From a virus: a stretch of DNA of 32,121 nt. Under the pieces are notes generated by a model. That model worked only from the letters and a program-made list of their open reading frames with translations, did no database searches and was not told the origin of the DNA. Position numbers and translations under genes: made by a program. Location: positions 1 to 32,121 of the IMG/VR virus record IMGVR_UViG_3300008110_000234; one strand, given 5' to 3'. Below, piece by piece: positions 12,803-27,670 of the stretch; position 1 is the first letter of the stretch, and every line of letters starts with the position of its first letter.

Positions 12803-13443
12803 TTCATGAAAATTGATTCCCTTTGCATCAACTTGTCTGAATACTTTTCATCCTTTTTCCTGACAATTACACACATCACTTTTGCCAATGCTTTCCATTG
12901 ACCTGCTGCAACATCTTTCATATTCTGTTCAAATTGTGATGATTCTGCAAATTCAATGACAGTTGATTCTTTCATGTATTTTTGTGGCAAATACCAATTT
13001 TCCCCATTTACTGTGATGATGTGTTCATATTCCGGTTCATCAATCTTGTTGAAAATATCTGATACAACAGAAAACAATTGTTGCAACTGTGCAACATTCA
13101 TCCCATCACCCCCATCTTTGCCCAAAATTTCATCTTCTGACAAATCTTTTGTGAAAAATGATATCACCCTTGCATAGTATGGAAAAATGTGCTTATACAT
13201 GGCAATATTTGTGATTGCATCATATGCCTGTGTCAATTTCTCATTTGCTTTCAGAATGTTTTCTTCATTGCCTTCTTCCCTTGCTGTCATTAATTCTTCC
13301 AATGCATTGTCAATGTCTTTCAGATGTTTTGGTTTTGTTGGTTCAACCATTTCCAAATACTGAATATACTGTTCCAATGTGATGTCTTCCAATCCGGAAG
13401 GGAAATTGAACTTTTTGCCTGTGGATGTGCTGATTTTATACAT
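12673..13443 (-). CDS. Tail assembly chaperone-like protein (G-like, zero-frame product)
   Basis: 256 aa, starting at MYKISTSTGKKFNFPSGLED, because this ATG overlaps the end of the preceding gene by a few bases; longer versions to 13509 would overlap it extensively. The N-terminal pattern FNFPSGLEDITLEQYIQYLEM is typical of a Bacteroidetes-phage family adjacent to tail genes. The protein is acidic and helical with no catalytic motif. Near its end the codons TCT TTT TTT TTG form a slippery run leading into the overlapping -1 frame. Identification as a G/GT-type chaperone rests on that architecture. Note that the tape measure gene is not immediately downstream as it usually is. Confidence 0.6.
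   Translation of the reverse strand: MYKISTSTGKKFNFPSGLEDITLEQYIQYLEMVEPTKPKHLKDIDNALEELMTAREEGNEENILKANEKLTQAYDAITNIAMYKHIFPYYARVISFFTKDLSEDEILGKDGGDGMNVAQLQQLFSVVSDIFNKIDEPEYEHIITVNGENWYLPQKYMKESTVIEFAESSQFEQNMKDVAAGQWKALAKVMCVIVRKKDEKYSDKLMQRESIFMKWNLKDCMRVSFFLLKRSEISHQNLQIYMAAQNLMKLKQELNN
12764..12772 (-). other. Candidate -1 frameshift (slippery) site, T9 run
   Basis: Nine A on the plus strand are nine T in the coding strand, read as TCT TTT TTT TTG in frame. The heptamer T-TTT-TTT allows both tRNAs to re-pair after a -1 step and enters the overlapping 106-aa frame, giving TTT GCT GAA. RNA polymerase slippage on the same run is an alternative. Confidence 0.6.
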
Positions 13444-13756
13444 TTTTGCTTTTACGTTTTTTTGGAATGATGTCATCTTCACTTGTTGCCAACAGATTTG
13501 TTGGTTCATCTTCCAATTCTGCCCTTTTCTTTGCTGCTTCCATCAATGAAAGATTTTCAATTTCCTGTTGTTTGATTTTTTCATCTTTTGCCAATTTGCC
13601 TGAATCTTGTGACAATCCAAATTTCTTTTGTCCTTTGCCCTTCTGATTGATGAAAGATGATGTTGAATTGAACAAAGATTTTGTTGAAAAATCACTTGCA
13701 TACTTTGCAAGGATTCCAATCCATTGTTCACCAATTTTGATTTCTTCCGGTGTCAT
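13436..13756 (-). CDS. First gene of the tail unit, charged protein, unknown
   Basis: 106 aa (MTPEEIKIGEQWIGILAKYASDF...). The N-terminal half is helical; the C-terminal half is strongly charged and probably disordered (KKRAELEDEPTNLLATSEDD, ending PKKRKSKNV). It stands directly behind a well-formed TTG-N20-TACTTTTG promoter and overlaps the next gene by 8 bp. A structural or assembly role is implied by the operon. I do not recognise the family. Confidence 0.6.
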   Translation of the reverse strand: MTPEEIKIGEQWIGILAKYASDFSTKSLFNSTSSFINQKGKGQKKFGLSQDSGKLAKDEKIKQQEIENLSLMEAAKKRAELEDEPTNLLATSEDDIIPKKRKSKNV

Positions 13757-13784
13757 AAATTATTGATTTGATTGTTTAATGAAA

Positions 13785-13815
13785 CAAAAGTAAATATTTT
13801 TTAAGAAATTTTCAA
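13785..13815 (-). promoter_or_regulatory. Tail-module promoter (TTG-N20-TACTTTTG)
   Basis: On the minus strand TTG (13815-13813) is followed after exactly 20 bp by TACTTTTG (13792-13785), a full match to the Bacteroidetes -33/-7 consensus. It lies ~29 bp before the ATG of the first tail-unit gene. Unlike the five early-type sites it lacks the TTGTCA/TGACAA dyad, suggesting different timing or control. Confidence 0.7.
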
Positions 13816-13836
13816 AAAATGTTTTTTTATTCAAAA

Positions 13837-13860
13837 TGTTGTCATATTTTTGTGACAACA
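13837..13860 (+). promoter_or_regulatory. Early-type promoter with palindromic operator, site 2
   Basis: The best dyad of the set: TGTTGTCA (13837-13844), -7 element TATTTTTG (13845-13852), TGACAACA (13853-13860), 8-bp perfect arms. Upstream, TTTTTTTATTCAAAATG is nearly identical to the region upstream of site 3. It drives the plus-strand gene at 13896 with a ~35-nt leader and is back-to-back with the minus-strand tail promoter. Confidence 0.85.
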
Positions 13861-13895
13861 ATAATTCAATTATTCACAACAAAACACATACAGTC

Positions 13896-14561
13896 ATGAA
13901 AATCACAACATCAACAGAACTTTGCCAATGGTCATCAATTGCAGCACAAATCATTGAAACAGCAATTGAAAAGGTACTAACACCTGAAATGATTGCACAA
14001 CTTGAACATGATGCAATCAACAAAAAACAGGAAAATTGGGGAAAATGGATTGGTCAACAGGTAAAATTCAACCTGACCATGAAACAGGGAAATCTTGTTT
14101 CCAAAAACCTGTTCAAATTGATTGAATCAGGATGGCACATTGAACACAATGGAATCAAATTTCAATTGCCAATGAACATCACATGTTTTGAAATGCACAG
14201 CAGAACAGGAAAATTTGGTGAATATATTCAGGTTCAATTCTGTTTTTTTGTCCTGCCTGATGAAACATTGATTGAACCATCAAAAACAGATTTTACAAAT
14301 TTAATTGGTGAATGTGTTTTTGTGGATGGATGGCAAAATGACAATGGTGGAACAATTTTGGATGGAATAATTACATCAATAGAATATTTTGGTGAAAAAT
14401 ATGGTCACACCACATATAAAATCAGCACAAAAAATGGCAATACTACATTGCCCTGTTATATACTTCAAAACCTTTTGGACAAAGGTAGTTATCAATCAAA
14501 TCCCCTTCTTAATACAGGGACTAATGCTGTACTGAATCCGAAAATAAAACAACAAAGATAA
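13896..14561 (+). CDS. Single-gene plus-strand cassette, 221-aa protein of unknown function
   Basis: Starts at MKITTSTELCQWSS. The ATG follows the early-gene leader (ACACATACAGTC) and lies ~35 bp after promoter site 2; the longer frame from 13836 begins inside the operator and cannot be transcribed from it. The first ~65 residues are helical (AQIIETAIEKVLTPEMIAQL). The rest is beta-rich (FGEYIQVQFCFFVLPDETL), with no membrane segment or catalytic motif that I recognise. The gene has its own promoter and a strong terminator and is inserted between terL and the tail genes in the opposite direction, the classic layout of a phage moron. A role in host takeover, exclusion or anti-defence is possible but unproven. 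Confidence 0.8.
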   Translation: MKITTSTELCQWSSIAAQIIETAIEKVLTPEMIAQLEHDAINKKQENWGKWIGQQVKFNLTMKQGNLVSKNLFKLIESGWHIEHNGIKFQLPMNITCFEMHSRTGKFGEYIQVQFCFFVLPDETLIEPSKTDFTNLIGECVFVDGWQNDNGGTILDGIITSIEYFGEKYGHTTYKISTKNGNTTLPCYILQNLLDKGSYQSNPLLNTGTNAVLNPKIKQQR

Positions 14562-14567
14562 ATCAAC

Positions 14568-14593
14568 AGCCACAGCAATGTGGCTTTTTTTTT
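14568..14593 (+). terminator. Rho-independent terminator of the 13.9-14.6 kb cassette
   Basis: AGCCACA (14568-14574), loop GCAA, TGTGGCT (14579-14585), followed by a run of T to 14593. It starts 7 bp after the plus-strand stop codon, and its T-run overlaps the stop codon of the converging large terminase gene. Confidence 0.9.
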
Positions 14594-15779
14594 ACCCAAA
14601 TGCCAACAATCCCTGCCCTTTTCCCTTTGTAAGCATTCCCATTGCCCAATACCGACATGCATCCCATGCATGATTGAATGCATCAATTGGCTTGTTGACC
14701 TTTTCACCTGTCTTTAATTCTCGCCATTTATAATTTTGTGCTTCCTTCAACCAATTCTTTGAATCCCTTGTGATGTGAATCTTTCCCCTTTGTTTTATCA
14801 GGTCAATGGAAAAATTGATTGAATCTGCACCCTTGTCTGCCGGAATGATGTTCCATCCAAACAACCTTAATTCTTTGATTGATTTTGGGTCTGCTGAATC
14901 TGCAAATATCATTGAATTCTTTTTAATACCCAATTCAATGAACATGTGGTGAATTTCTCTATTGGTCATGCCTGTTTGATACAACAATTCCTGTCCATAC
15001 ACTTCACCATCTGAAACACCACACATGACCAATGATGTTGGGTCAACTGAAAAACCAAAATCCAACCCATATGCTACTTTATCCAAATGTTCAGGCAATT
15101 TCTCACAAACAGAATAATCAAAAATAACACCTTCAACTTTTCCTGTCTGTCCTAAACCGTAAACCCTCCACAACATTGGGTCTGATTTCTTCAATTTCAG
15201 GATTGATTCCACAATGTTTGGTGAAACAAATGGATTGTGTTCATAATTGCTGATGAAATATGCTGTGTTATCTGCTCCAATCAACTTTTCATGCACCCAA
15301 AATTCTGTGTTTGGATTATAGTCAAGATAAACCCTTTCATCTGTCCTGATTTCCAATTCTTTATATATTGGATATGGAATTCCATTTGCTTCATTCATGA
15401 AAAGAACTTGTCTTTTCCCTGATTTTGCATCCTGTGGATTCTGATATGATGTGAATTCCACAACTGAACCATTTCTGAATGTCAAAACCCTATCTGTTTG
15501 ATTGTAGCCAATAAGATTTGCCCTGATGAATGGTGTTTGTTCAATGATGCTGAATGAATCCCTGATTGCACCTTTTTTCAGATTTGGAATATCCTGACCA
15601 ACAACTGTGATTTTCCATCCTGAATTCTCTATTGCAAGACAAAACAGAACTTGTAAGATTGAATATGTCTTTCCTGATGATGTTCCACCCTGATTGATGC
15701 AAATGATTTTCCTGTCAGATGAAACATCTGCATATTGTTCCGGAAATTTGTTCCACAAAAAAAGACATGATGTTTTCAT
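14592..15779 (-). CDS. terL: Terminase large subunit
   Basis: 395 aa from MKTSCLFLWNKFPEQYAD. This start is chosen because ATG at 15779 forms an ATGA overlap with the stop of the 40-aa membrane gene. ATPase: Walker A GGTSSGKT (~31-38), Walker B VLFMNEAN (~125-132). RNase H-like nuclease: YGLDFGFSVDP (~240), FADSADPKSI (~290) and DAFNHAWDACRYW (~370) supply the acidic metal ligands. The length and motif spacing fit the Terminase_3 (PBSX/SPP1-like) family, which packages DNA into proheads in an ATP-driven manner. It converges with a plus-strand cassette. The small subunit lies ~740 bp upstream and not next to it. Confidence 0.95.
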   Translation of the reverse strand: MKTSCLFLWNKFPEQYADVSSDRKIICINQGGTSSGKTYSILQVLFCLAIENSGWKITVVGQDIPNLKKGAIRDSFSIIEQTPFIRANLIGYNQTDRVLTFRNGSVVEFTSYQNPQDAKSGKRQVLFMNEANGIPYPIYKELEIRTDERVYLDYNPNTEFWVHEKLIGADNTAYFISNYEHNPFVSPNIVESILKLKKSDPMLWRVYGLGQTGKVEGVIFDYSVCEKLPEHLDKVAYGLDFGFSVDPTSLVMCGVSDGEVYGQELLYQTGMTNREIHHMFIELGIKKNSMIFADSADPKSIKELRLFGWNIIPADKGADSINFSIDLIKQRGKIHITRDSKNWLKEAQNYKWRELKTGEKVNKPIDAFNHAWDACRYWAMGMLTKGKGQGLLAFG

Positions 15780-15898
15780 CCAAACAATCCAATGAATGAT
15801 TTGATGATTTGATACCAAACCCAAATGACTGCAACAAATACCATTGTTGTCAGGATTGCAGAAAATATTGCAATTGCTTTGTTTGTCCTATTTTTCAT
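15776..15898 (-). CDS. 40-aa single-span membrane protein before terL
   Basis: MKNRTNKAIAIFSAILTTMV begins a 40-aa peptide with a basic N-terminus and one long hydrophobic helix (residues ~8-36) ending IIKSFIGLFG. It overlaps the stop region of the 160-aa gene upstream and the terL start by ATGA, so translational coupling is likely. Candidate roles are a small holin, a pinholin or a membrane anchor. It sits about 1 kb downstream of the endolysin gene in the same direction. A longer form from 15970 would lie mostly inside the 160-aa gene. Confidence 0.6.
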   Translation of the reverse strand: MKNRTNKAIAIFSAILTTMVFVAVIWVWYQIIKSFIGLFG

Positions 15899-16370
15899 TG
15901 TTTTTTGATTTTTCAAGTTCATCAATTTTTTTGATTGCCCATTCAATCCCTGAATCACCACCCCATGCATCCCACATCAAACCACCACACCCATCTGTGT
16001 ATGACACATTTTTGTTCTGCTGATGTCTTTTGAATGCTGCCATCCTTTTGATTGTTTCAATGCTGATGTTTTCCTTGTTAGCCAATTGTCTTGCCCTTGC
16101 CCAACCAACCAATGTGCCACATCCATTTTTGTTGTTGTTCTTTTCCCTGAATTCAATTGCCCTTTTTGCATTGTTTGTTGCTGCTTCCGGATAGTCATTG
16201 AATGTTTCTGCTTCTGCCCTGATTGCTTTTGCTTCTGATTCATATGTCATGGAACAAACACCATATCTTTGTTTGACATCAGGATATTCTTTGAACATCT
16301 GTTCATCTGACATGCATCTGTCAAGAAAGAACATTGATGATTCACCTTTTTTTGGTATTGGTATTGGCAT
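15888..16370 (-). CDS. 160-aa protein with a phage NNAKRAIEFR-type domain
   Basis: MPIPIPKKGESSMFFLDRCM... contains ATNNAKRAIEFREKNNN, CGTLVGWARARQLANKENIS, ETIKRMAAFKRH and a C-terminal GLMWDAWGGDSGIEWAIKKI. This combination recurs in phage and prophage proteins, sometimes fused to head or packaging proteins, and looks like a helical nucleic-acid-binding module. Two or three Cys (C19, C38, C77-like positions) may be structural. The ATG follows the leader AACACACATC and begins 10 bp after iteron element B. It probably belongs to packaging or head assembly, but the function is not established. Confidence 0.6.
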   Translation of the reverse strand: MPIPIPKKGESSMFFLDRCMSDEQMFKEYPDVKQRYGVCSMTYESEAKAIRAEAETFNDYPEAATNNAKRAIEFREKNNNKNGCGTLVGWARARQLANKENISIETIKRMAAFKRHQQNKNVSYTDGCGGLMWDAWGGDSGIEWAIKKIDELEKSKNNEK

Positions 16371-16380
16371 GATGTGTGTT

Positions 16381-16479
16381 TTTCAGTTAGGCATTTTTGG
16401 AACAACTTGTTGTGCCTTTTTGGAACAACTTGTTGTGACCAAATGGCACACAATAAAGAAAGAATAATAATAAATATTT
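16381..16479 (-). repeat. Iteron element B (inverted copy)
   Basis: In minus orientation: AAATATTT (16479-16472), an A/T-only tract and CTTTCTTTATTGTGTGCCATT, then dyads. On the plus strand the units start at 16399 (GGAACAACTTGTTGTGCC), 16422 (the same with one inserted A) and 16445 (GGCACA half-unit), an exact 23-bp period. It fills the gap between the small terminase gene and the 160-aa gene. Its first ~40 bp are almost identical to element C. Confidence 0.8.
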
Positions 16480-16516
16480 TTTATAGTACCATTTTGTTGA
16501 TGTCAACAGAATGATG

Positions 16517-16894
16517 TCAATCAGGTTCAAATGGAAGAATCTTTTCCCCTTGAATGACCTGAATGTTGAAATCAATCTTTTCCCCATCCACACCACTTAT
16601 TTCAGTACGTTCAACATATCCCCTTCTTTTTCCTTTTGTTTTCAACAGGAACAAAATGGCTGCTGTATTTCCCCCACTTACCTGTGCATACAACTGTGAT
16701 TCTGCAAAATCCAAAACAATGTCATCAATTTCCCTGACCTTTGCTGCAAATTCTGAATCTTCATTGTACCATTTGTAAAACTGTGTCCTGCTGATGTTTG
16801 CCTTGTTACATGCTGTTGTGACAACACCAAGACTTTTTTCCAACAGTTCCAACACCTTTTTTTTATTGCTGTTCGTTTTGTCATTTGTCTTCAT
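16517..16894 (-). CDS. terS: Terminase small subunit
   Basis: 125 aa. Residues ~10-45 form a helix-turn-helix of the small-terminase type (LGVVTTACNKANISRTQFYK followed by WYNED). A helical region follows (DDIVLDFAESQLYAQVSGGN) with AAILFLLKTKGKRRGY, a motif very common in phage small terminases just before the C-terminal part. It recognises pac/cos DNA and regulates the large subunit. It follows the endolysin gene with a 2-bp gap and is followed by iteron element B, so an interaction between packaging and that element is worth considering. Confidence 0.85.
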   Translation of the reverse strand: MKTNDKTNSNKKKVLELLEKSLGVVTTACNKANISRTQFYKWYNEDSEFAAKVREIDDIVLDFAESQLYAQVSGGNTAAILFLLKTKGKRRGYVERTEISGVDGEKIDFNIQVIQGEKILPFEPD

Positions 16895-16896
16895 GT

Positions 16897-17523
16897 CTAT
16901 AATTCAATTAATGTGAAATTGATGAATTGATTTTGCTGAAAGATTTTGATTGCTTCTTGCCATTGTTTATCAGGAACAATCAAACATCCTGCTGACCATT
17001 GGTCAATGATGCTACCTAAACCACCCCTGTGAAAATTGATTCCATACCATCCTTTTGTTTTGATGTCTTTGTTCACATTTTTGTCTTTGTTCCCATCCCT
17101 GAATATTTCAATTGCACCTGACTGAAAGAAATATGGCATTCCCAACCACAAAGACTTCCAATTTGGACTTGTGATGAATTTATGTGATGCAATGACCTGT
17201 TGTTCTGCTGCAACTGCTGTTCCTGTGATTCCCCCAACTGTTAATGGATTGTAGACTGAAAAATTCCCTGCTTTTGTGCTGCATGGCATGACCATGTCTG
17301 CAACCCTGTTGTTGAATCTGATGACAAAATCTGAATATTTGTTATCAAATTGTTGATTTGTTCTAATCCAAACCAAATCATTTACAGGTTTTACCCATCC
17401 CCTGATGTTCATTTCTGTGTCAATCCATTGTTTTGCACCTGCCAATGTCAATTTTCCAACAATACCATCAATGTTGCCGGAATAGAATCCTTTTTCTTTT
17501 AAGATTGTTTGAAAGTTCTTCAT
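16897..17523 (-). CDS. Endolysin: peptidoglycan-binding plus L,D-transpeptidase-like catalytic domain
   Basis: 208 aa. Residues ~1-35 (FQTILKEKGFYSGNIDGIVG followed by KLTLAGAKQW) are a peptidoglycan-binding helix bundle. The C-terminal domain carries GINFHRGG, then DQWSAGCLIVPDKQW, the His and Ser-x-Gly-Cys pattern of the YkuD-like fold seen in many Bacteroidetes-phage endolysins. It likely degrades host peptidoglycan at lysis. No signal peptide is visible, so a holin is needed; the 40-aa membrane protein ~1 kb downstream and the holin-like gene at 29678-30199 are candidates. It lies between the ParB-like and small terminase genes with 2-3 bp gaps. Confidence 0.75.
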   Translation of the reverse strand: MKNFQTILKEKGFYSGNIDGIVGKLTLAGAKQWIDTEMNIRGWVKPVNDLVWIRTNQQFDNKYSDFVIRFNNRVADMVMPCSTKAGNFSVYNPLTVGGITGTAVAAEQQVIASHKFITSPNWKSLWLGMPYFFQSGAIEIFRDGNKDKNVNKDIKTKGWYGINFHRGGLGSIIDQWSAGCLIVPDKQWQEAIKIFQQNQFINFTLIEL

Positions 17524-17526
17524 ATG

Positions 17527-18105
17527 TTATTGATAAAATTTTTCACCACAATGTGGACATGTTAGTTCTGTTTCGCCAATGGAATTGTCTGATTCCTGTT
17601 CATAATCATCTGCATCATCATCAATGTCATTGAAATTTGCATCATCTGATGTGTCTGTGAAATTGAAATCCATGTCTGTATTGACATATATTTCCATCCC
17701 AAAATCTTTGATTTCATCCAAATCCCATTCATTTGCAATGGATTCCCAATCAATTTCACCAAAACTGATGTTGTCTTTGATTGTCAATGCCTTCAATTGT
17801 TTAACTGTGAATGATTTTGGAATTATTTTGCATGGAATTTCTTCAATGCCCAAATCTTTACATGCCTGATATCTCATGTTCCCACCAATGACAATGTATG
17901 CATTTTTGTGCTTATAAACAAGAATTTCCCTTCCACCTAAAAATTCAGGATTGTCTTTGATGCTTTTCTTCAATGCTTCAAATCTGTTTGACCGGATGAA
18001 TCTCGGATTCTTTGGCAATCCTTTTATTTGTCCTGTGTTTGTGAAAATTTCATCAACAGGAATGAATACTGATTCAAATATTTCAATTTTTCCCATATTT
18101 TTCAA
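17527..18105 (-). CDS. ParB/Srx-like protein with C-terminal CxxC
   Basis: 192 aa. Residues ~10-115 have the ParB N-terminal fold: VDEIF near the start, then FEALKKSIKDNPEFLGGREI, VIGGNMRYQACKDLGIEEIP (the GG-x-x-R-x-x-A box) and VKQLKALTIKDNISFGEIDW. The middle C-terminal part is very acidic (Asp-rich), and the end, LTCPHCGEKFYQ, has a CxxC. Phage ParB-like proteins of this type usually sit beside terminase genes and may act as nucleases, CTPases or DNA-binding factors rather than in partition. It overlaps the upstream gene by 23 bp; a start at 18096 is also possible. Confidence 0.7.
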   Translation of the reverse strand: MKNMGKIEIFESVFIPVDEIFTNTGQIKGLPKNPRFIRSNRFEALKKSIKDNPEFLGGREILVYKHKNAYIVIGGNMRYQACKDLGIEEIPCKIIPKSFTVKQLKALTIKDNISFGEIDWESIANEWDLDEIKDFGMEIYVNTDMDFNFTDTSDDANFNDIDDDADDYEQESDNSIGETELTCPHCGEKFYQ

Positions 18106-18493
18106 TGTGTGATTTTACTATTGGATATATTGCCCTTGTTTCATTTTCTGCCCATGTGATGATTTCTTCTTCATGTTGGATATCCCAATTGAATATTTTT
18201 AATCCTGCATGTAACAGTTCATGATTCAATGTCAGAATCATTTCCAATTCTGATTCAATGCACCTTGTTAAATTGATGAACACAAAGATATCATCTTCAT
18301 GTGTGTATTTGTTATCATCTTTTGGGAAAAAATTGCACCATCCGGCAATGTATGCATCTGTTTTTGTGTTTCTGTGCAACATGCAATCTTTGTAATTCAA
18401 CCCATGCAATTCTGTTACACCTAAATGCCAAAATATTTCACATGGATTAAAATCAAGTAGCAATTTGTATTGTTTTCTGTCTATTTCAAACAT
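18083..18493 (-). CDS. Putative zinc metallopeptidase-like protein (HELLH)
   Basis: 136 aa. The sequence LTLNHELLHAGLKIF contains HExxH, the zinc-binding and catalytic motif of zincin peptidases. Further on, the acidic/hydrophobic segment HEEEIITWAENETRAI could give the third ligand (Glu). Phage proteins of this size with HExxH are known but mostly uncharacterised. The ATG carries the leader AACACACACACATC and stands only 18 bp after an intrinsic terminator hairpin, so its expression may depend on read-through. It overlaps the ParB-like gene. The catalytic assignment is by motif only. Confidence 0.55.
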   Translation of the reverse strand: MFEIDRKQYKLLLDFNPCEIFWHLGVTELHGLNYKDCMLHRNTKTDAYIAGWCNFFPKDDNKYTHEDDIFVFINLTRCIESELEMILTLNHELLHAGLKIFNWDIQHEEEIITWAENETRAIYPIVKSHIEKYGKN

Positions 18494-18510
18494 GATGTGT
18501 GTGTGTTTAG

Positions 18511-18544
18511 AAAAAAACAGGCAGTTCCAAATTGGTCTGCCTGT
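18511..18544 (-). terminator. Intrinsic terminator or attenuator between 18563 and 18493
   Basis: Minus strand: ACAGGCAG (18544-18537), 12-nt loop, CTGCCTGT (18524-18517), followed by a T-run (18517-18511). No promoter fits between it and the next ATG at 18493, so downstream genes (metallopeptidase to terminase) need read-through or another promoter. Confidence 0.75.
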
Positions 18545-18562
18545 CTGAAAAAACTATTTTAA

Positions 18563-18763
18563 TCACTTTTTGACCTTCTTAATATTTACAGTTGATTTGA
18601 CATTCTTTTTGTCAACATTTGAATTCCCTTTCTTTCTTGGTATTTTTCCACCAACATTGTTGAAATCCAAATCTTCATAATTGTCTTTTGTTGTTTTGAT
18701 ATATCCATTTTTTTTGAATTCTTTCAATTCATTTTCATATTGCTTTTTTTCTTCCGGTGTCAT
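18563..18763 (-). CDS. Small basic protein, unknown
   Basis: 66 aa (MTPEEKKQYENELKEFKKNG...), Lys- and Asn-rich with a helical N-terminus and a basic, probably disordered tail (NVKSTVNIKKVKK). It follows the poly-Gln/GNAT-like gene by 24 bp on the same strand and ends just before an intrinsic terminator, so it is the last gene of that unit. DNA or RNA binding is possible from the charge alone. No family is recognised. Confidence 0.55.
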   Translation of the reverse strand: MTPEEKKQYENELKEFKKNGYIKTTKDNYEDLDFNNVGGKIPRKKGNSNVDKKNVKSTVNIKKVKK

Positions 18764-18787
18764 GTTGCTAAAATTTAAGATTATTTG

Positions 18788-19768
18788 TTATCTGTTACTT
18801 CTTTCTTGTTGATAAGAATTTAATGTATTCATTGAATATGAATTATCTTTCAAATCAAATGTTCCTGACCATTGCCTTCCGTTTCTTTTCCACCATTCCC
18901 TTCCTTGTTCTGTTGCCATTACTTGTTTGAAATTTCTAACTTCTGCAAGACCATTTTGACGAGCATAATCATTGAAACCACTTACACCCAATGTTGGATT
19001 CCCTTTTGATTCATATCCAAATCTTGCCCATGTATAATATCCATTCATAGATGAACCATAAGAACCACCTGCTGTGACTGTGATTTGATTGAATCCGTTA
19101 CTTCTCAATGAATCAACCTGACTGCTGAATATTTCCAATCCCCTTCCATCATGCTGTGTATTTTTATCAATTCTAAAATATTCATTATAAACAGTTTTGT
19201 CACGCAAATTTATCACCCTATTCATTGTAACACCTTCACCTGACACTTGCACATATGCACCATCACTTGTGTAACTTACACTTATTTGCCCACCAAAATC
19301 TTTTGGAACACCTGTGAATGAAACAATATCACCTGTTGAAAACTGTGGAAATCTGTTTGTTCCCCTTTCACCAATTGTTGCATTATAATCCTGTGTTCCA
19401 TTTTGTTGACGTTGTTGTCTTTCCTGTTCTTGTCTTTGTCTACTCCTTTCTTCTGCTTGTCTTTGTTGTTCTGCTGCTTGTCTTTGTTGTTCCTGCTGCT
19501 GCTGCTGTTGCACAATTTGCTGTCTTTGTGAAACAAGTTCATCAATTCTTCTTCTTGTGTCAACCAAATCTTGAAGAATTTGGTCTTCTTCTTCATCTGT
19601 TGTTGCATTATCTAATCTTGTATTTAAATCTGCTCTTCTTTGTCTTTCTCTGTTTATATCATTATTGATATCATCCAAACTTCTTTGGAATGCATCAGCA
19701 GGTGCAGTTTTTATGTTCTGCCCAAATCTTTGACCTGTTCTGACTGATTGTCCTGACCTTCCACCCAT
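18788..19768 (-). CDS. Poly-Gln coiled-coil protein with GNAT-like C-terminal domain
   Basis: 326 aa. Residues 1-35 are Gly/Arg rich. Residues ~35-125 form a coiled coil and a Gln/Arg low-complexity tract (RQQIVQQQQQQEQQRQAAEQ and more). From ~140 on there is a globular domain: NEYFRIDKNTQHDGRGLEIF with SSQVDSLRSNGFNQITV, then NGYYTWARFGYES and, at the end, QGREWWKRNG plus FDLKDNS. This pattern resembles an N-acetyltransferase-like fold found in phage head-associated or toxin-like proteins; the GRGL-like turn would bind acyl-CoA. It overlaps the DUF4417 gene by TAATG. Virion cargo or an injected enzyme is possible, but this is inference. Confidence 0.55.
   Translation of the reverse strand: MGGRSGQSVRTGQRFGQNIKTAPADAFQRSLDDINNDINRERQRRADLNTRLDNATTDEEEDQILQDLVDTRRRIDELVSQRQQIVQQQQQQEQQRQAAEQQRQAEERSRQRQEQERQQRQQNGTQDYNATIGERGTNRFPQFSTGDIVSFTGVPKDFGGQISVSYTSDGAYVQVSGEGVTMNRVINLRDKTVYNEYFRIDKNTQHDGRGLEIFSSQVDSLRSNGFNQITVTAGGSYGSSMNGYYTWARFGYESKGNPTLGVSGFNDYARQNGLAEVRNFKQVMATEQGREWWKRNGRQWSGTFDLKDNSYSMNTLNSYQQERSNR
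19420..19515 (-). repeat. Low-complexity CAA/CAG-type tract encoding poly-Gln/Arg
   Basis: On the plus strand there are short tandem copies of CTTGTCTTTGTTGTTC and CTGCTG units. They code for the Gln/Arg-rich segment of the 326-aa protein. The length is likely variable between relatives through slippage. Confidence 0.7.
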
Positions 19769-20418
19769 TATATTAAATTTTGTTTTCTTTTTCTATCAAA
19801 AAAAGAATCTATGTGAAGAATATTTTGAAATTGTTCATAATCTTTCCGGAACTTCTTATTGCACATGAACACAATCTGTCTTGGCTGAATCCTTTCAACC
19901 ATTGCCTGAAAACCATAATCAAAAAATCTTTTGTGACTTTCATTCCTGCACCCAATGTTGGAAACTGCAACTGTGCTACCAAAATTGATTCCCTGAAAAC
20001 AATACTTCAATGAATTCTTGTCTGCCCAACTAATTGCCGGAATCACTTTCAATCCGTATGACTGCCATACATGACCAACCAATCTGTTTTTGTACACATT
20101 GAATTGTTGCAATGGTTCAGGCATCCCAACAAGTAAGGAATAATCAGGTGACTGAATGAATCTTGCAGGAAGGAACTTGTTGATGTGCTTTTCAGGACTG
20201 TTCCAAAATCTTTCAAGGATGTAATCATCCACAAATGTACACACCAAAGAACCTGCAACAATGTTGTTGTAGTCATTGCAGTTCACAATGTTGATTCCTT
20301 CCGGAACAACATTCAAAAATGAACCAATTGCAGGAAAATCAGCATCAAAATTTATGTGTTTGATGTTGAATTTGTCTGCACTATGCATCCATTTATGTGA
20401 TGTTCTTGTTTCAAACAT
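19768..20418 (-). CDS. DUF4417 family protein
   Basis: 216 aa. The order of features matches DUF4417 proteins of phages and mobile elements: FVDDYILERFWNSPEKHINK, a QSPDYSLLVGMPEPLQQFNV segment, GLKVIPAISWADKNSLKYCF, GSTVAVSNIGC and MVERIQPRQIVFM. The biochemical function of the family is unknown. The repeated conserved Asp, Trp and Ser residues suggest an enzyme. It opens a unit with the GNAT-like protein (TAATG overlap) and is divergent from the plus-strand gene at 20505, with promoter-like TAnnTTTG elements for both in the gap. Confidence 0.75.
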   Translation of the reverse strand: MFETRTSHKWMHSADKFNIKHINFDADFPAIGSFLNVVPEGINIVNCNDYNNIVAGSLVCTFVDDYILERFWNSPEKHINKFLPARFIQSPDYSLLVGMPEPLQQFNVYKNRLVGHVWQSYGLKVIPAISWADKNSLKYCFQGINFGSTVAVSNIGCRNESHKRFFDYGFQAMVERIQPRQIVFMCNKKFRKDYEQFQNILHIDSFFDRKRKQNLI

Positions 20419-20435
20419 TCAAAAAAAGATTTTGA

Positions 20436-20443
20436 CAAATTTA
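20436..20443 (-). promoter_or_regulatory. Possible -7 element for the DUF4417 unit (TAAATTTG)
   Basis: TAAATTTG lies 18 bp before the DUF4417 ATG on the minus strand and fits TAnnTTTG. No TTG is seen at the preferred spacing, so the call is weak. Confidence 0.35.
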
Positions 20444-20465
20444 TGCATATTTTGATAAAAATTGA

Positions 20466-20473
20466 TACATTTG
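20466..20473 (+). promoter_or_regulatory. Possible -7 element for the 20505 gene (TACATTTG)
   Basis: TACATTTG fits TAnnTTTG and lies 31 bp before the plus-strand ATG. It lacks both a well-spaced TTG and the TTGTCA/TGACAA dyad, so this cassette is probably not in the five-site regulon. Confidence 0.4.
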
Positions 20474-20504
20474 TTGCATTATTTTATCACAAAATCATTA
20501 TTTT

Positions 20505-20840
20505 ATGAATGCCCTGAAAACCTGTGTTGTGATTGTTGCTGATTTGATATCTGAAATTGGTTCAATCACAGAAGATAAAAAAATCACATTTGGTGAAATT
20601 CTTGGTCTTGCACCTGAATTGATGAAAATACCTTCACTTGTTGCCAACATGCCATTGGCATTGGCAGAACTAAAACAAGGAATTTCTGACCAATATCTTG
20701 CAGAAATCAAATCTGATGTTGCAAAAAAACTTGACCTAAAAAATGACAAATCTGAAAAGATTGTTGAAGCATGTGTCAATTGGCTTGTCATCACTTCTGC
20801 AACAGTTTTTGAAATTAACAATGCAGTCAAAGCAAAATAG
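20505..20840 (+). CDS. Plus-strand 111-aa helical protein, unknown
   Basis: MNALKTCVVIVADLISEIGS..., all-helical by pattern, with a central LAPELMKIPSLVANMPLALA segment and a C-terminal WLVITSATVFEIN helix that is hydrophobic but has polar breaks. It is the third gene transcribed against the flow, and a very clear terminator follows 26 bp after its stop. It could be a small membrane-associated or structural protein; no family is assigned. The early-gene A/C leader is weak here (TTTTATCACAAAATC upstream). Confidence 0.7.
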   Translation: MNALKTCVVIVADLISEIGSITEDKKITFGEILGLAPELMKIPSLVANMPLALAELKQGISDQYLAEIKSDVAKKLDLKNDKSEKIVEACVNWLVITSATVFEINNAVKAK

Positions 20841-20865
20841 ACTTTTGTCTGTCTATGTGTGTGTG

Positions 20866-20897
20866 TGCCTGTGGTGTGTGTGCCACAGGCATTTTTT
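20866..20897 (+). terminator. Rho-independent terminator after the 20505 gene
   Basis: TGCCTGTGG (20866-20874), loop of alternating TG (8 nt), CCACAGGCA (20883-20891), then TTTTTT. Nine perfect base pairs make it the strongest terminator in the window. The DUF3127 gene ends 43 bp further on from the other side. Confidence 0.92.
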
Positions 20898-20939
20898 ATG
20901 TCGTTTCATGTCAACTGTTATTTGACAACTTTTTATTGC

Positions 20940-21272
20940 TTAGAATGGCAATTTTATCCCATCATTTTCTACTTGTTCAACATAATGTTCAACTGTTTTT
21001 TTGCCAACTTCAATTGACCATGCATTCAATTGGACATAAAACTTTTCCTGGTATTCCCTTCCGGATATGTTGAAAGATACCTTTGCAGGACAATTCACAT
21101 AATTTGGTAGCCTATCGAACACATATTCTGTGAACCTGTTGTGCCTGATGCTGAATTTCAATGTCTGTGGATATTGTTCATTGGTTTTCAAGATGAAATC
21201 CTTGAATGATGCTGATGCTGTCTTCTTTTCTTCAAAGACTTGAATGATTGTTCCTTCAATTGTGTAGTTCAT
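20940..21272 (-). CDS. DUF3127-like single-stranded DNA-binding protein
   Basis: 110 aa with an OB-fold pattern: MNYTIEGTIIQVFEEKKTAS, FKDFILKTNEQYPQTLKFSI, then VSFNISGREYQEKFYVQLNA with WSIE. The order (G-x-I, F-ilk, YPQT-x-kF, FNI-x-GRE-Y, AW-x-IE) is that of DUF3127 proteins, small Bacteroidetes relatives of SSB. It probably coats ssDNA during replication and recombination and would partner the YqaJ exonuclease and ERF annealing protein encoded on the same strand. It overlaps the preceding gene by ATGA. Confidence 0.8.
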   Translation of the reverse strand: MNYTIEGTIIQVFEEKKTASASFKDFILKTNEQYPQTLKFSIRHNRFTEYVFDRLPNYVNCPAKVSFNISGREYQEKFYVQLNAWSIEVGKKTVEHYVEQVENDGIKLPF

Positions 21273-21670
21273 ATGATTCTGATGTGTTTTATTTGTGATG
21301 AATGCTTTGGTACTGATATTTTGATTCCCCTGTATTCTGCCAATGTCCCTGAATTGATGTTGTGAAATATGCCAATTCTGTGCAAATGGACATAATATTC
21401 TGCATGGAACTGAATGGATGTGATTTCATCCATTTCAATTGTTGCTGTTTGGATTTCTTCTTTTGGAATATTGTCAATCCACCAATCCAATAATTGCTTT
21501 ACCATTTTTTGCTGTTTTTTTGCCTTCTGTTGAATTTTTTTGTAGGTGTGGCAATCTGTATTACCACACCCACAAAAATCACTATAATAGCCAAAAGAAT
21601 TGCAGATGAATTCATATTTGTGGGATTCTTCTGACAACAACTTCATAAAAAAATTCATGCAACCTGTCAT
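21269..21670 (-). CDS. Cys-rich protein after the exonuclease gene, unknown
   Basis: 133 aa from 21670; alternative in-frame starts are at 21658 and 21646 (MKLLSEESHKYEF), which reduce the overlap with the exonuclease gene from 59 nt. The segment FCGCGNTDCHTYKKI has closely spaced Cys and may bind zinc. A helical region (QQKAKKQQKMVKQLLDWWID) and a beta-rich end follow. It ends in an ATGA overlap with the DUF3127 gene, placing it in the recombination operon. No family is recognised. Confidence 0.6.
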   Translation of the reverse strand: MTGCMNFFMKLLSEESHKYEFICNSFGYYSDFCGCGNTDCHTYKKIQQKAKKQQKMVKQLLDWWIDNIPKEEIQTATIEMDEITSIQFHAEYYVHLHRIGIFHNINSGTLAEYRGIKISVPKHSSQIKHIRII

Positions 21671-22250
21671 GTAATTTTAGAATGTCATCTGAATTTGGAA
21701 ATACCCTTTGCACAACCATCTGAAATTGTTCCGGAAATCTTGGGTCAAATGTGACAAAATCACACCATTCTGCACCTGTTATCCACAAATATCCCTGAAC
21801 CTGCCACCAATATGTTTCAAGATAATCACCATCAGGACAATTGAAAATTTCAGGTTTTGCAGTTCTGATGATGTCAAGTTGATTTGTTGGATTGTGTGGG
21901 CATTTTACTTCAATCATTCCCATGTTCCCTGCAATGTCACATTCAATGATTCCATCAGGCAACCCATTCACAAAACCAAAAATGTCTGATTGGATTCTTT
22001 CAGGTTTTGACACATTGCAAAGATGTTCAAATTCATACTTTTTGATTGCTTCTGCTTCATTGTTGATTCCCCACCACATTGCTGTGTTTGTGATGTCAGG
22101 CATTGGAACACCCATTGCTTTGCAGATAATTTCATCTGCATATGTCAATGCAGTTTTGCCAAATCCTTTTTTGCCTGTTGACAATGCCATCACTTTTGAA
22201 AATTGGCTTGGTGTGATGCTGATGTTGTTTTTGATTTCAATTATGTCCAT
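21612..22250 (-). CDS. YqaJ/lambda-type exonuclease
   Basis: 212 aa. The PD-(D/E)xK nuclease core is clear: ITPSQFSKVMALSTG at the N-terminus, GINNEAEAIKKYE (helix Glu), GLPDGIIECD (metal Asp), MGMIEVKCP (the E-x-K), and YWWQVQGYLWITGAEWCDFV (conserved Gln). These match YqaJ viral recombinases, which resect dsDNA 5' ends to give ssDNA for the annealing protein. With ERF (28211-28801), the DUF3127 protein and the RuvC-like resolvase it forms a Red-like recombination set. The leader ACACACATCATT precedes the ATG. Confidence 0.9.
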   Translation of the reverse strand: MDIIEIKNNISITPSQFSKVMALSTGKKGFGKTALTYADEIICKAMGVPMPDITNTAMWWGINNEAEAIKKYEFEHLCNVSKPERIQSDIFGFVNGLPDGIIECDIAGNMGMIEVKCPHNPTNQLDIIRTAKPEIFNCPDGDYLETYWWQVQGYLWITGAEWCDFVTFDPRFPEQFQMVVQRVFPNSDDILKLHDRLHEFFYEVVVRRIPQI

Positions 22251-22264
22251 AATGATGTGTGTTT

Positions 22265-22636
22265 TTAGATTTCTTTGAATGTTGTTTCCGGTTTATATAC
22301 TTTCAATCCTGCTTTTTTGACAATTTTGATTGCTTCTTCAAGCATGTCTTCATCAAATTGTTTTTCTTTCAGTTCCAATTCCAATTCCAATTGCTTTGGT
22401 TTTGGTAGCTTTTCAACTGTCTGAACAATTTCTGTTTGTTTGTTCTTGTTCCAACTCCTTGTGAAATTTATATTCCTGTGTGCATATTTTGCCAAATATT
22501 TCTTTGCACTACCATTCCTAATTTTGTCTTCCAACAATCCATATTTCCGACATGCATTGCAGAACTGTTTTGATGTGAATTCTTCCGGCATGTCTGCAAA
22601 TGCCTGTTCAAAAATTGCTTCAAATAACTTTTCCAT
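22265..22636 (-). CDS. 123-aa early protein, unknown
   Basis: MEKLFEAIFEQAFADMPEEF... has a helical N-terminal domain (SKQFCNACRKYGLLEDKIRN with KRN-like basic residues), then a charged Glu/Lys coiled segment (KQLELELELKEKQFDEDMLE). The first part could be a DNA-binding helix-turn-helix. The ATG has the leader AACACACACAC. It stands immediately before the YqaJ gene (14-bp gap), so a recombination or replication accessory role is plausible. No family is recognised. Confidence 0.6.
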   Translation of the reverse strand: MEKLFEAIFEQAFADMPEEFTSKQFCNACRKYGLLEDKIRNGSAKKYLAKYAHRNINFTRSWNKNKQTEIVQTVEKLPKPKQLELELELKEKQFDEDMLEEAIKIVKKAGLKVYKPETTFKEI

Positions 22637-22781
22637 GTGTGTGTGTTATTTTTGAAAGTGAATAAAAAAATGTTTCTTTTGTTGTGGGACAATGCAACAT
22701 GCATCTTGGATGCCCTGAATTCTGTCTGTAATAGGCAATGAACAGACATTCTTTGTTTGTCCATGTCAATACCTTGTCCAT
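22620..22781 (-). CDS. Very short gene, 53 aa, unknown
   Basis: MDKVLTWTNKECLFIAYYRQ opens a 53-aa frame that begins 4 bp after the stop of the 143-aa gene and overlaps the next start by 17 bp, filling an otherwise empty 150-bp gap. It contains PRCMLHCP, a possible metal-binding Cys/His cluster. The tail SKITHTHGK is encoded by the A/C leader of the next gene. Spacing supports it; nothing else identifies it. Confidence 0.45.
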   Translation of the reverse strand: MDKVLTWTNKECLFIAYYRQNSGHPRCMLHCPTTKETFFYSLSKITHTHGKVI

Positions 22782-22785
22782 AAAA

Positions 22786-23217
22786 TTAAAGTTCTGCATG
22801 TGTCAATTTTTTAATGATTTTTAAAATGTCATTGTTTGACTGATAATCAAATTGCAAAAAATCATTACTATATGTGTCTGTAACTGAATGAAATTTCACA
22901 TTAAACAGATGTTTTAATTCATCTAAAATGTCATTGTTTGAACATGAATAATGGGGCAGAATTGCAATTTCAAACAAATAAAACTTTCCATCTTTATTTC
23001 GTTTTGACCTGATCCCATTACCTGCTGCAATTGACAATTTGTATTTTCCAATGCCAAAAAATGCATGGAAGCAAAAATCAACAAAATTTCTTGTGACAAT
23101 ATTGTGGAAATCAACAGGCAGATTGACAATGTCAATCCCTTGTGATTCTGCCAATGTCAATGCAAGTTCATATTGACCTGATTCAAAAATGTTAGCAATG
23201 TTTTGTTCTGTTGTCAT
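22786..23217 (-). CDS. 143-aa early protein, unknown
   Basis: MTTEQNIANIFESGQYELAL..., with a helical N-terminus (leucine-rich, LALTLAESQGIDIVNLP) and an alpha/beta remainder (GKFYLFEIAILPHYSCSNND). The N-terminal part recalls short phage or host repeats of the kind seen in leucine-rich or TPR-like caps, but no clear domain can be named. The ATG follows AACACACATACAGCC, the early leader. It is in the operon driven from promoter site 3. Confidence 0.6.
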   Translation of the reverse strand: MTTEQNIANIFESGQYELALTLAESQGIDIVNLPVDFHNIVTRNFVDFCFHAFFGIGKYKLSIAAGNGIRSKRNKDGKFYLFEIAILPHYSCSNNDILDELKHLFNVKFHSVTDTYSNDFLQFDYQSNNDILKIIKKLTHAEL

Positions 23218-23248
23218 GGCTGTATGTGTGTTATTGTGAATTAAAAAA

Positions 23249-23542
23249 TTATAGTGATGTGTATAATCCGGTTATCTGTGTGAAAATTTGCTGCAATTGG
23301 TCACAATATACATTATTGAATTTTGCTTTTGTGACAATGGTGAAATCTTTCTTTGCTGTGAAGAATTCCATGTCATATGTGTCCATTGAATTCAAGGTGA
23401 TTTTTAGCCATTTAGCACCTGATCTGTTTCTTGAAAGATTCATTCTTAATGAATTTTTGTCTGCAACATAGTTTTTTGAACCTGTCATCAATGTGAATCT
23501 TTTTCCACCTAATTGTTGAAGAATTGTTTGTGCAACTTGCAT
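23249..23542 (-). CDS. 97-aa conserved phage protein (LGGKRF-GSKN type)
   Basis: Start at 23542 (MQVAQTILQQLGGKRFTLMT). The frame also has an ATG at 23596, but that lies inside the -7 element of promoter site 3 and cannot be in its transcript; 23542 has the leader AATCACACACATC. LGGKRFTLMTGSKNYV, LRMNLSRNRSGAKWLKITLN and DTYDMEF recur in small phage and plasmid proteins of unknown function. It is the first gene of the site-3 operon leading to exonuclease and SSB, so it is likely an early DNA-metabolism protein. Confidence 0.7.
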   Translation of the reverse strand: MQVAQTILQQLGGKRFTLMTGSKNYVADKNSLRMNLSRNRSGAKWLKITLNSMDTYDMEFFTAKKDFTIVTKAKFNNVYCDQLQQIFTQITGLYTSL

Positions 23543-23588
23543 GATGTGTGTGATTTTGTGTGTGTTGAATGTTGTTGTTTGTCCCTTT

Positions 23589-23610
23589 GGTGTCACAAAG
23601 ATATGACAAC
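23589..23610 (-). promoter_or_regulatory. Early-type promoter with palindromic operator, site 3
   Basis: Minus strand: GTTGTCA (23610-23604), TATCTTTG (23603-23596), TGACACC (23595-23589); one mismatch in the second arm. Upstream TTTTTTTATTCAGAATG closely matches site 2. It starts the operon 23542 to ~20940, with a ~47-nt leader. Confidence 0.85.
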
Positions 23611-23626
23611 ATTCTGAATAAAAAAA

Positions 23627-24100
23627 TTATTCTGCAAGTTTTTTGAAAATATTTTTTGCAAGAAATGCCAATTTGAATGCATCCCTTTTGTCCTGTTCTG
23701 TTTTGTTGCCTTTATAATTGTTTACTGTGCTATATTTTGCAAACAATGGAATGATGTCTTGATGTGTCAATTTCCTTCCTTTTGCCTTTGGGGAAATTTC
23801 ATAAACATGTTTCAACTTGTGTTTTGCATAGTCAAAAAACATTTGGCTGATTGCCTGATTCATCCCAACATTTCTGCTGATTTTTTTATCCTTCCTTACA
23901 TTGCCTGTCCTGATGAATGTCACATTCTGCAAATTGCTATTTTCGATGACCATCACAACATCATCAGGATTCAGGTCATCAACAAATTCAACAAAGGTGA
24001 TAAAGCTACCTATTTTGGGAAAATTTATTGTGTCCCCTTCGATCAGGCAACAACCAATCCCATCCTTTCTGAATGCAGGGTCAATTCCAATATATATCAT
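23627..24100 (-). CDS. RuvC-like Holliday junction resolvase
   Basis: 157 aa. RNase H-fold acidic residues are visible: MIYIGIDPAFRKDGIG (first Asp), VVMVIENSNLQN (Glu), and EQDKRDAFKLAFLAK (terminal Asp pair), the RuvC order. The central basic segment (GNVRKDKKISRNVGMNQAI) fits the DNA-binding helix. It would cleave four-way junctions during recombination and clear branched DNA before packaging. It overlaps the glucosaminidase gene by 20 nt and ends just before promoter site 3. Confidence 0.85.
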   Translation of the reverse strand: MIYIGIDPAFRKDGIGCCLIEGDTINFPKIGSFITFVEFVDDLNPDDVVMVIENSNLQNVTFIRTGNVRKDKKISRNVGMNQAISQMFFDYAKHKLKHVYEISPKAKGRKLTHQDIIPLFAKYSTVNNYKGNKTEQDKRDAFKLAFLAKNIFKKLAE

Positions 24101-24527
24101 ATTTTTCTAATTTTTTTTGTTTAACAATTTTATAAATGAATGCCCAATATTCTGAACTTTCCCCATATCCTTTGAAATTTGCCCAATGTGCAGCAGATTT
24201 CCGGCATCCGGATTGATAATGTTCTGAAAGGAATCTTGCATGTTCCCAATATCCCTGAAATACTGTGTCAAATGCTTTCCATTTTGTTCCTGATTCTGAT
24301 GTGATGAATTGTCCATCCTTTGAAAAATGCATCATTCCAAAGTGATTTTTGGCTGTCTGTGCAATGATTGACTTTCCACCACCTGATTCAACAATTGCCT
24401 GTGCAATCTGAATTGATGTTGGAATACCAAACACAACTTCACAAATCTTTGCATTCAGCAGATTACATTGGATATATTGTTCATGTGTGTTTGATGTCCC
24501 AAAAAATGCTAAAAATATGTAAATCAT
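24081..24527 (-). CDS. Glucosaminidase-type peptidoglycan hydrolase with N-terminal signal-like segment
   Basis: 148 aa. MIYIFLAFFGTSNTHEQYIQ resembles a short signal or anchor. The rest is a FlgJ/LytG-like glucosaminidase domain: GIPTSIQIAQAIVESGGGKS (catalytic Glu in the VESGGG turn), TAKNHFGMMHF, KWKAFDTVFQGYWEHARFL. Its position between the methyltransferase (ATGA overlap) and the RuvC gene is unusual for a lysis gene. It may be an accessory muralytic enzyme or be made early. A second endolysin (16897-17523) is better placed for lysis. Confidence 0.8.
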   Translation of the reverse strand: MIYIFLAFFGTSNTHEQYIQCNLLNAKICEVVFGIPTSIQIAQAIVESGGGKSIIAQTAKNHFGMMHFSKDGQFITSESGTKWKAFDTVFQGYWEHARFLSEHYQSGCRKSAAHWANFKGYGESSEYWAFIYKIVKQKKLEKYDIYWN

Positions 24528-25936
24528 TTCATGTAATTTAAAATGTGAACAATGACATCAACAGTCCATCCATTTCCTAACATTCTGTATCTTTGTGAAT
24601 CAGATACATGATTTGTGTAATCATCCGGAACTGTTTGCAATCTTTCACATTCAATTGGAGTTAATCTTCTGATTTTTGATGTTATTTTGGCGATTTTTGA
24701 AACGGCATCCATATATTCTTCGGAACTGCCTGCCCTTGATTGTGCAAGGGTTAATGTATTTGCTTTGTCTGCATTAATATTTGGATTGAATTTTTTCAAT
24801 TGATTTTCATTCAAGGCTTTTTTTTCCATATGAACAACAACATTAATTCCAAAATTTGACATTCCCTTATAATCACGTTGAAGCAATGTTTGAGCTTTTG
24901 AATTTTCTTCAAAATTTTTTTCAAATCCCATTTGACCACATACAATTTCAACAGCATTTTCATCAACAATATGTGTATTGTTTGCTGAATTAATTGTCTG
25001 AATGATTGCAATTGATTTTTCTGTATGAATTGATTTATTGTATGAATCCAACAAAACACCATGTTCCAATGAATCAAAATGTTTTTCAATATTTTCATTC
25101 AATCTTTTGTTATTAAAAATTTCAACTGTATTGGTGTTGTGGATAATAATGTTGTCAGAAATATCCAAAGAACCGCTATGGGCATTGATACATGCTGCTT
25201 TTTCATTCCCTTCTTTATAATTGATTTTTCCATTATTAAAATTATTCTTTCTTGTTTCAAGATAGTTCATCATCTTAGATGAAAGAAAGTATTTTTCATT
25301 GACATCTTTTTCAAGAATATGTTTTAAAAGAATTCCTTTGTCTTTTGGTTGTTGAATAATACTTTCCAAATCACCAAACAATCCGGAAGGTTGCATTCCA
25401 ATATTTGTCCAATAGATTCTTTTTCTATTTTGCGCAGAAACAAGTGAAGAATTGATATGAATTCCATTCACACCAATTGCTTTTGACAATACTTTTTCCC
25501 ATTTTTCGCCCATTTCAACATTTTCAAGAAGAAAATAAACATTAGGATTCTTTGTTCTTAGTTCATTCAATATTCGCATATATTCCCAAAACAAATATGA
25601 TTGACCTTCAAATTCATATCCTTCTTCTTTCAGTTGCAGATAATGATTCAATTCTAAGATTTGAACATTGTCTTTTGTAGACATTCCCTTTCTTTTTCCT
25701 GCAAAGGAAAATGATTGACAGGGTGAACCACCAATCAACAAATCTATTTTTGGCAAATCATATGCATTGACATCAACAACAGAACCTAATTGGACAGTAT
25801 TTGGAAAATTTGCCATTGTTACCTTAATTGCATATTTGTCAATCTCTGATGCAAAATAATTGTCAATTTTGAATCCTGATCTGTTCAATGCAATTTGTCC
25901 GCATGACATACCATCAAATAAAGATAAAACATTCAT
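24524..25936 (-). CDS. DNA cytosine-C5 methyltransferase
   Basis: 470 aa. Canonical motifs in order: I SLFDGMSCGQIALNRSG (~5-21), IV IGGSPCQSFSFAGKRKG (catalytic Cys ~78), VI FLLENVEMGEKW (~135), VIII SAQNRKRIYWTNIG (~167-180), IX-X region RLTPIECERLQTVPDD and RYRMLGNGWTVDVIV (~420-460). About 230 residues between VIII and IX form a large target-recognition region, so the recognised site cannot be read from the sequence. It would protect phage DNA or reprogram host methylation. CpG is clearly more common here than in neighbouring genes, suggesting a recent acquisition. It has the early leader AATCACACACAC before the ATG. Confidence 0.95.
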   Translation of the reverse strand: MNVLSLFDGMSCGQIALNRSGFKIDNYFASEIDKYAIKVTMANFPNTVQLGSVVDVNAYDLPKIDLLIGGSPCQSFSFAGKRKGMSTKDNVQILELNHYLQLKEEGYEFEGQSYLFWEYMRILNELRTKNPNVYFLLENVEMGEKWEKVLSKAIGVNGIHINSSLVSAQNRKRIYWTNIGMQPSGLFGDLESIIQQPKDKGILLKHILEKDVNEKYFLSSKMMNYLETRKNNFNNGKINYKEGNEKAACINAHSGSLDISDNIIIHNTNTVEIFNNKRLNENIEKHFDSLEHGVLLDSYNKSIHTEKSIAIIQTINSANNTHIVDENAVEIVCGQMGFEKNFEENSKAQTLLQRDYKGMSNFGINVVVHMEKKALNENQLKKFNPNINADKANTLTLAQSRAGSSEEYMDAVSKIAKITSKIRRLTPIECERLQTVPDDYTNHVSDSQRYRMLGNGWTVDVIVHILNYMK

Positions 25937-25955
25937 GTGTGTGTGATTTTGTGTG

Positions 25956-27495: not shown

Positions 27496-27511
27496 GATTT
27501 TGTAAAATAGA

Positions 27512-27612
27512 AAACCGGACATTCAAATGTTTGTAGGGAAAACAAGTGAACAATCCGGTCATGTTGCCAAATGCCTGTTGGCATCTGAAAAGAACAGATG
27601 GATTCCCTACTT
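27512..27612 (-). ncRNA. Structured 5' leader of the initiator gene with predicted pseudoknot
   Basis: In the transcript from promoter site 4, GUAGGGAA (27610-27603) can pair with UUCCCUAC (27540-27533). Within that loop ACCGGA (27559-27554) can pair with UCCGGU (27519-27514) lying downstream of the first stem, giving an H-type pseudoknot. Inside are two mutually exclusive hairpins, CAUCUG/CAGAUG (27600-27595 with 27587-27582) and AUGCC/GGCAU (27584-27580 with 27575-27571). It lies 17 nt before the ATG. The pairing is read from sequence; the regulatory role is inference. Confidence 0.5.
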
Positions 27613-27627
27613 CCATATGCTCTTTTC

Positions 27628-27647: not shown

Positions 27648-27670
27648 TTTATTGAATAATCAAATCTTGA

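Follow-up and report, generated by a model that had tools for sequence, protein, structure and literature searches.

An Inverted Origin-Like Element between the Terminase Genes of a Phage as a Candidate Additional Binding Array for Its O-Like Initiator

Element B and the Terminase Region

The DNA under study (the window) is a virus record of 32,121 bases. A non-coding stretch of its late gene region, located between terS and a gene of unknown function, houses the element that we refer to as B. Coordinates of B, of its parts and of other features discussed below are collected in Table 1. Read on the minus strand, B consists of an AT-rich block, a right half-site, two full dyads and a left half-site, in that order. 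The two dyads are exactly 23 bp apart (start to start), and about 14-15 bp separate the outer edge of B from the start codon (16370) of the next gene. The AT-rich block, a candidate unwinding element, is within the top 0.1% of all 36-bp windows of the whole stretch by AT content. A first-pass annotation of this DNA described two dyads plus a half-site at 23-bp spacing; the dyads and the spacing were recovered in our analysis, while the single half-site has to be replaced by two, since half-sites flank the dyad pair on both sides. We also considered the units of B as three spacer-centred inverted repeats and rejected this description: the arms are imperfectly symmetrical, and the sequence alone does not fix the centre of the binding site.

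Table 1. Elements and genes of the window referred to in the text.
Feature	Coordinates	Strand	Remarks
Element E3	3163-3268 (about)	+	Same module as B; between convergent genes 2830-3174 (+) and 3276-3644 (-)
terL	14592-15824	-	Terminase_3 family
Gene downstream of B	15888-16370	-	PHROG 2859 (unknown function); widespread phage module parting terS from terL here
Element B (= E16)	16385-16485 (about)	-	AT-rich block, right half-site, two full dyads, left half-site
B left half-site, TGCCTAACT	16385-16393	-	Outer edge; 3 mismatches in 9
B dyad 2, GGCACAACAAGTTGTTCC	16399-16416	-	0 mismatches to consensus GGMACAACWWGTTGTKCC
B dyad 1, GTCACAACAAGTTGTTCC	16422-16439	-	1 mismatch to consensus GGMACAACWWGTTGTKCC
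B right half-site, TTGTGTGCC	16445-16453	-	Adjoins AT-rich block
B AT-rich block	16450-16485	-	Candidate unwinding element; 91.7% AT
terS, small terminase subunit	16517-16894	-	Directly upstream of B
SSB-like protein	20940-21272	-	PHROG 4932, DUF3127
YqaJ/RecE-like exonuclease	21612-22250	-	
Holliday-junction-resolvase-like gene	23627-24100	-	Weak PHROG match, no Pfam match
Gene adjoining initiator	25956-26819	-	In helicase-loader place; no family match, role assigned from position only
O-like replication initiator, 261 aa	26737-27522	-	PHROG 678 and 9773 (E 6e-14)
Element E27	27073-27176 (about)	+	Same module as B; within the O-like initiator gene
ERF-type single-strand annealing protein	28211-28801	-	

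In 41 of the 44 terminase relatives sampled, the Walker A motif, which we read as the start of terL, is found no more than 400 nt past the end of the terS match, whereas in this phage it is 828 nt away from the terS stop. It thus follows that B sits in a cassette that interrupts the terS-terL pair. The gene at 15888-16370 is a very common phage module, with at least 597 confirmed relatives found in unrelated contexts at GC contents from 0.29 to 0.55. These relatives have other surroundings, with no element matching B upstream of them.

Matching Elements and the Initiator Gene

Two further elements of the window, E3 and E27, follow the plan of B, with half-sites on both sides of a dyad pair. 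B is inverted relative to both of them, in agreement with its earlier description as an inverted third copy beside terS. The dyad consensus across the elements is GGMACAACWWGTTGTKCC. When the window was scanned with this consensus allowing up to two mismatches, five sites were retrieved (3237, 16399, 16422, 27122 and 27145), all of them within the three elements; the same scan of order-2 Markov sequences yielded 0 sites. An ungapped alignment brings the elements into one four-step register of 23 bp, with a similarity far in excess of chance. Over 86 ungapped bp, 58 positions match between B and E27, 54 between B and E3 and 62 between E3 and E27. The best match to B outside the elements reaches 43 positions in the window, and the best matches in 60 Markov-3 sequences averaged 43.3 and reached 49 at most.

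The similarity is not confined to the dyads. On their AT-rich sides, B and E3 have a 45-nt stretch in common at 93% identity (3167-3211 versus 16442-16486 reversed), so that the AT-rich block of these two elements is better preserved than their iterons. This bears out the first-pass observation that the first ~40 bp of B are nearly identical to an element called C there: C must be E3, and the shared part comes "first" when B is read on the minus strand. By inspection, the AT-rich block of E27 follows this pattern too but differs in length by one base. In E3, the first dyad is degraded; it overlaps a 12-bp hairpin followed by TTTTT (3205-3236), a terminator-like arrangement that looks as if an iteron had become a terminator. 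B lies 13.2 kb from E3 and 10.7 kb from E27, with at least 10.6 kb left to circle closure, and the spacing of the elements may therefore be near-even.

The gene that houses E27 codes for a protein that aligns with the O-like proteins of phages phiBB (31% identity), Fpv5 (28%) and LL-Ku (25%). Its single-sequence structure prediction had a mean pLDDT of 34.8, and a sequence search against solved structures returned nothing usable, only short matches, mostly to designed repeat proteins. The iterons of E27 correspond to initiator codons from about 115 to 138 and the AT-rich block to codons 138-150. E27 is thus an iteron array within an initiator gene, as in origins of the lambda ori or SPP1 oriL type, and an AT-rich block adjoins this array on its downstream side in the coding direction. 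Since one of three matching elements sits inside the initiator gene, B and E3 are most likely initiator-bound. The earlier proposal that B may link replication to packaging is supported in its replication half, for an element of the same build occupies the place where lambda-type and SPP1-type origins are found; its packaging half fared otherwise, as described below.

The contexts of the three elements differ: E27 is inside a gene, E3 is between convergent genes, and B is between co-directional ones. A role at the level of DNA fits this diversity. An element acting in RNA as a hairpin, leader or terminator could account for the strong hairpin with T5 in E3 (z -5.6) and for the folding of B (z -2.6 to -2.9). 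However, E27 folds no better than its shuffled versions (z -0.24), the stem of B is not followed by a T-run and was not called as a terminator, and Rfam matches were far under the gathering scores; the probability that we give to this explanation is close to nil.

The differing contexts also bear on the possibility, raised in the first-pass annotation, that the elements are repressor operators laid out like lambda oL/oR, i.e., three sites ~23 bp apart that control transcription. The 18-bp dyads and their 23-bp spacing are indeed similar to the arrangement of lambda oR, whose sites are 23-24 bp apart, B stops about 15 bp short of a start codon (16370), and one sigma-70-like pair near it, at 16520-16491 on the minus strand, scores 10/12. 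Yet operators of this type should overlap or abut a promoter, which is not the case for B, E3 or E27: E27 is within a coding sequence, E3 separates convergent genes, Bacteroidota -7 boxes (TAnnTTTG) are absent from all three, and sigma-70-like matches around B occur at chance number (4 found versus 3.2 expected). By contrast, the arms of another dyad family, TTGTCA-N8-TGACAA, enclose Bacteroidota-type -7 boxes (TATTTTTG) at 2516 and 13839. Since the boxes are enclosed by this other family and are absent from the three elements, the operator explanation is weak; only the spacing agrees with it, and we consider it very unlikely. The TTGTCA-N8-TGACAA family itself (2516-2535, 13839-13858, 23590-23609, 27628-27647 and 29544-29563) looks like a repressor operator acting over several promoters.

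Dispersed dyads could also make up a centromere-like site, the more so as a ParB-like protein is encoded ~1 kb away from B, at 17527-18105. A parS site calls for a ParB with a DNA-binding domain, but this protein matches only ParB_N, weakly and below the Pfam cut-off; its tail is acidic and zinc-ribbon-like, and no helix-turn-helix domain is recognisable, which makes a centromere extremely improbable. The gene lies two genes upstream of terS, and its ParB_N-like product, whose tail is acidic and whose zinc-ribbon-like end is of the CPHC type, is probably not a partition protein.

Distribution of the Array in Relatives

A contig near-identical to the window, IMGVR_UViG_3300008107_001030, covers positions from about 13144 to 32121 at 97.6-100% identity, depending on the block, and also carries B. 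Because it continues 2,406 bases beyond the right end of the window, the genome must be at least about 34.5 kb long; a 462-aa frame in this extension was read as a candidate portal gene. A Bacteroidota host is likely, since phages of Flavobacterium and Bacteroides are, among others, found in the terminase matches.

Searches with the initiator, the neighbouring gene and TerS retrieved no relative at moderate divergence that shares this initiator, and the element was found only in the near-identical contig. A blastn search of phage records with B and a scan for its AT-rich block likewise gave no further matches. The exact pattern GTTGTKCC-N5-GGMACAAC is present in 35 stretches of viral contigs, but apart from this phage, an array was seen only in the near-identical contig; outside this lineage, dyad pattern scans of viral contigs produced isolated single matches.

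The terminase relatives allow one to weigh a further possibility, that B is a packaging (pac or cos) site recognised by TerS. This possibility, also put forward in the first-pass annotation, has in its favour the location of B directly downstream of terS. A pac site should, however, be confined to the terminase region and common to relatives with the same TerS. The dyads of B recur within the initiator gene and near 3.2 kb, and none were detected in the terminase relatives, whose best segments are mostly 54-65% identical to TerS and in which terS and terL mostly adjoin, usually nearly abutting. On these grounds we consider a packaging site highly unlikely. Since the TerS relatives have no dyads and the array is found in just one other contig, IMGVR_UViG_3300008107_001030, whose initiator is identical, the dyads appear to go with the initiator rather than with the terminase, a correlation drawn from one phage lineage.

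We also compared phages with O-like initiators. Among seven such genomes or genome parts (lambda was partly covered), a strong copy of the in-gene array outside the initiator gene was seen in this phage alone; no clear second copy was detected in the other six phages or records. Additional copies of the array are therefore not a general rule among phages with O-like initiators. In Fusobacterium phage phiBB, whose O-like initiator is 31% identical, dyad iterons at 23-bp spacing are located in the same part of the gene, but the iteron sequence is different and the rest of the genome shows no clear second array. A weak second match to the phiBB (L174) O-gene array, at 32215, comprises 40 of 60 positions, and two random controls gave 36 and 37. 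The O-like gene of another record, G029, contains a weaker array with 21-bp spacing.

Origin-Like Elements and Late Replication

At control loci of iteron plasmids, P1 incA for example, initiator-binding iterons are located away from the origin, without an unwinding element. B resembles loci of this kind in its distant iterons and differs from them in having a candidate unwinding element. One can imagine that B and E3 titrate the initiator or, by handcuffing, pair with E27, thereby keeping initiation in check, a known effect of extra iterons on iteron plasmids. The location of the extra arrays away from the initiator gene agrees with such a function. So does the finding that ectopic copies of the lambda origin in the host arrest lambda replication (PMC4488673). 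Yet titration requires no unwinding element, whereas B and E3 have retained the AT-rich block, and retained it better than the iterons. We therefore consider titration unlikely.

In lambda, two iterons with the AT-rich block constitute the minimal fragment that unwinds (PMC7466680), and B has the same make-up. The lambda iterons correspond to O codons 116-144, and the AT-rich block flanks them on the side seen in E27. Lambda ori is similar to E27 in that dyad iterons of 18-19 bp, spaced by 20-24 bp, lie in the initiator gene and are followed by an AT-rich block. The difference is that lambda has four iterons in a single such origin, while this phage has two full dyads plus half-sites three times.

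An origin outside the initiator gene has a precedent in phage SPP1, whose G38P binds at two origins, oriL within gene 38 and oriR in an intergenic stretch, each composed of repeats and an AT-rich unwinding region (PMC3485210, PMC6316719). G38P at oriR has been described as a second origin or fork barrier (PMC3485210, PMC5615212), and a fork stalled there has been proposed as the trigger of concatemer synthesis (PMC3485210, PMC6316719). Moreover, oriR is located in a segment of three accessory genes that interrupts late genes (PMC6316719). As with the elements of this phage, one SPP1 origin is in the initiator gene and the other in a non-coding stretch of late genes, with direct repeats and an AT-rich region; B, too, combines the repeats of the in-gene element with an AT-rich region elsewhere in the genome. 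The copies are 12-13 kb apart in SPP1 and 13.2 and 10.7 kb apart here, and both phages encode an exonuclease, an annealing protein, an SSB and, on a weak match here, a resolvase. In contrast to SPP1 with its two origins, this phage has three elements, with B inverted and dyad iterons at 23 bp. The initiator of this phage is called O-like, and SPP1 G38P is set beside it by published description only.

Taken together, the sequence comparisons suggest that B is probably an extra array, origin-like in build, that the O-like initiator of this phage binds and that serves as a secondary origin and/or a fork barrier. Within this initiator-bound reading, a second origin and a fork barrier are about equally likely. 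For both B and E3, additional initiator-bound origins or sites of fork arrest are most likely, ahead of a packaging site or a gene switch. GC skew was uninformative, since nearly all genes are on one strand.

We propose that the initiator binds the iterons of E27, within the initiator gene, and unwinds the AT-rich block, where theta replication would begin, and that the same protein also binds B, where it may open the DNA, and E3. Late in infection, the bound arrays at B and E3 would become further start sites, or else barriers that stall forks coming from E27. Because the AT-rich side of B faces E27, a fork that exits E27 on the AT-rich flank of that element would run head-on into B 10.7 kb away. 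The exonuclease, the annealing protein, the SSB and the resolvase-like protein could then restart synthesis in the form of concatemers for the terminase, with B serving the theta-to-concatemer switch as a secondary origin and/or fork barrier. This set of proteins is the one used in the SPP1 model; its members here include an ERF-type annealing protein and an SSB-like protein, and the evidence for the resolvase is weaker.

A bolder version of this scheme would have three working initiator-bound origins about a third of the genome apart (arcs of 13.2, 10.7 and at least 10.6 kb), with fork stalling at the inverted terS-terL copy delivering concatemer ends to the start of packaging. We regard this version as distinctly unlikely, but if true, it would provide a physical link between replication and packaging.

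An in-gene origin with a second copy was already known from SPP1, where there are two. A phage with three such elements, including an inverted one between the terminase genes, was not found in the open-access papers searched. The switch of phages from circle-to-circle replication to packaging concatemers is unsettled even in lambda and SPP1. Three look-alike origin-type elements, with one inverted between terminase genes, offer a natural setting for experiments on fork barriers, second origins and packaging, element by element. They also suggest a search rule for other phages: to take the iterons of the initiator gene and seek copies elsewhere in the same genome.
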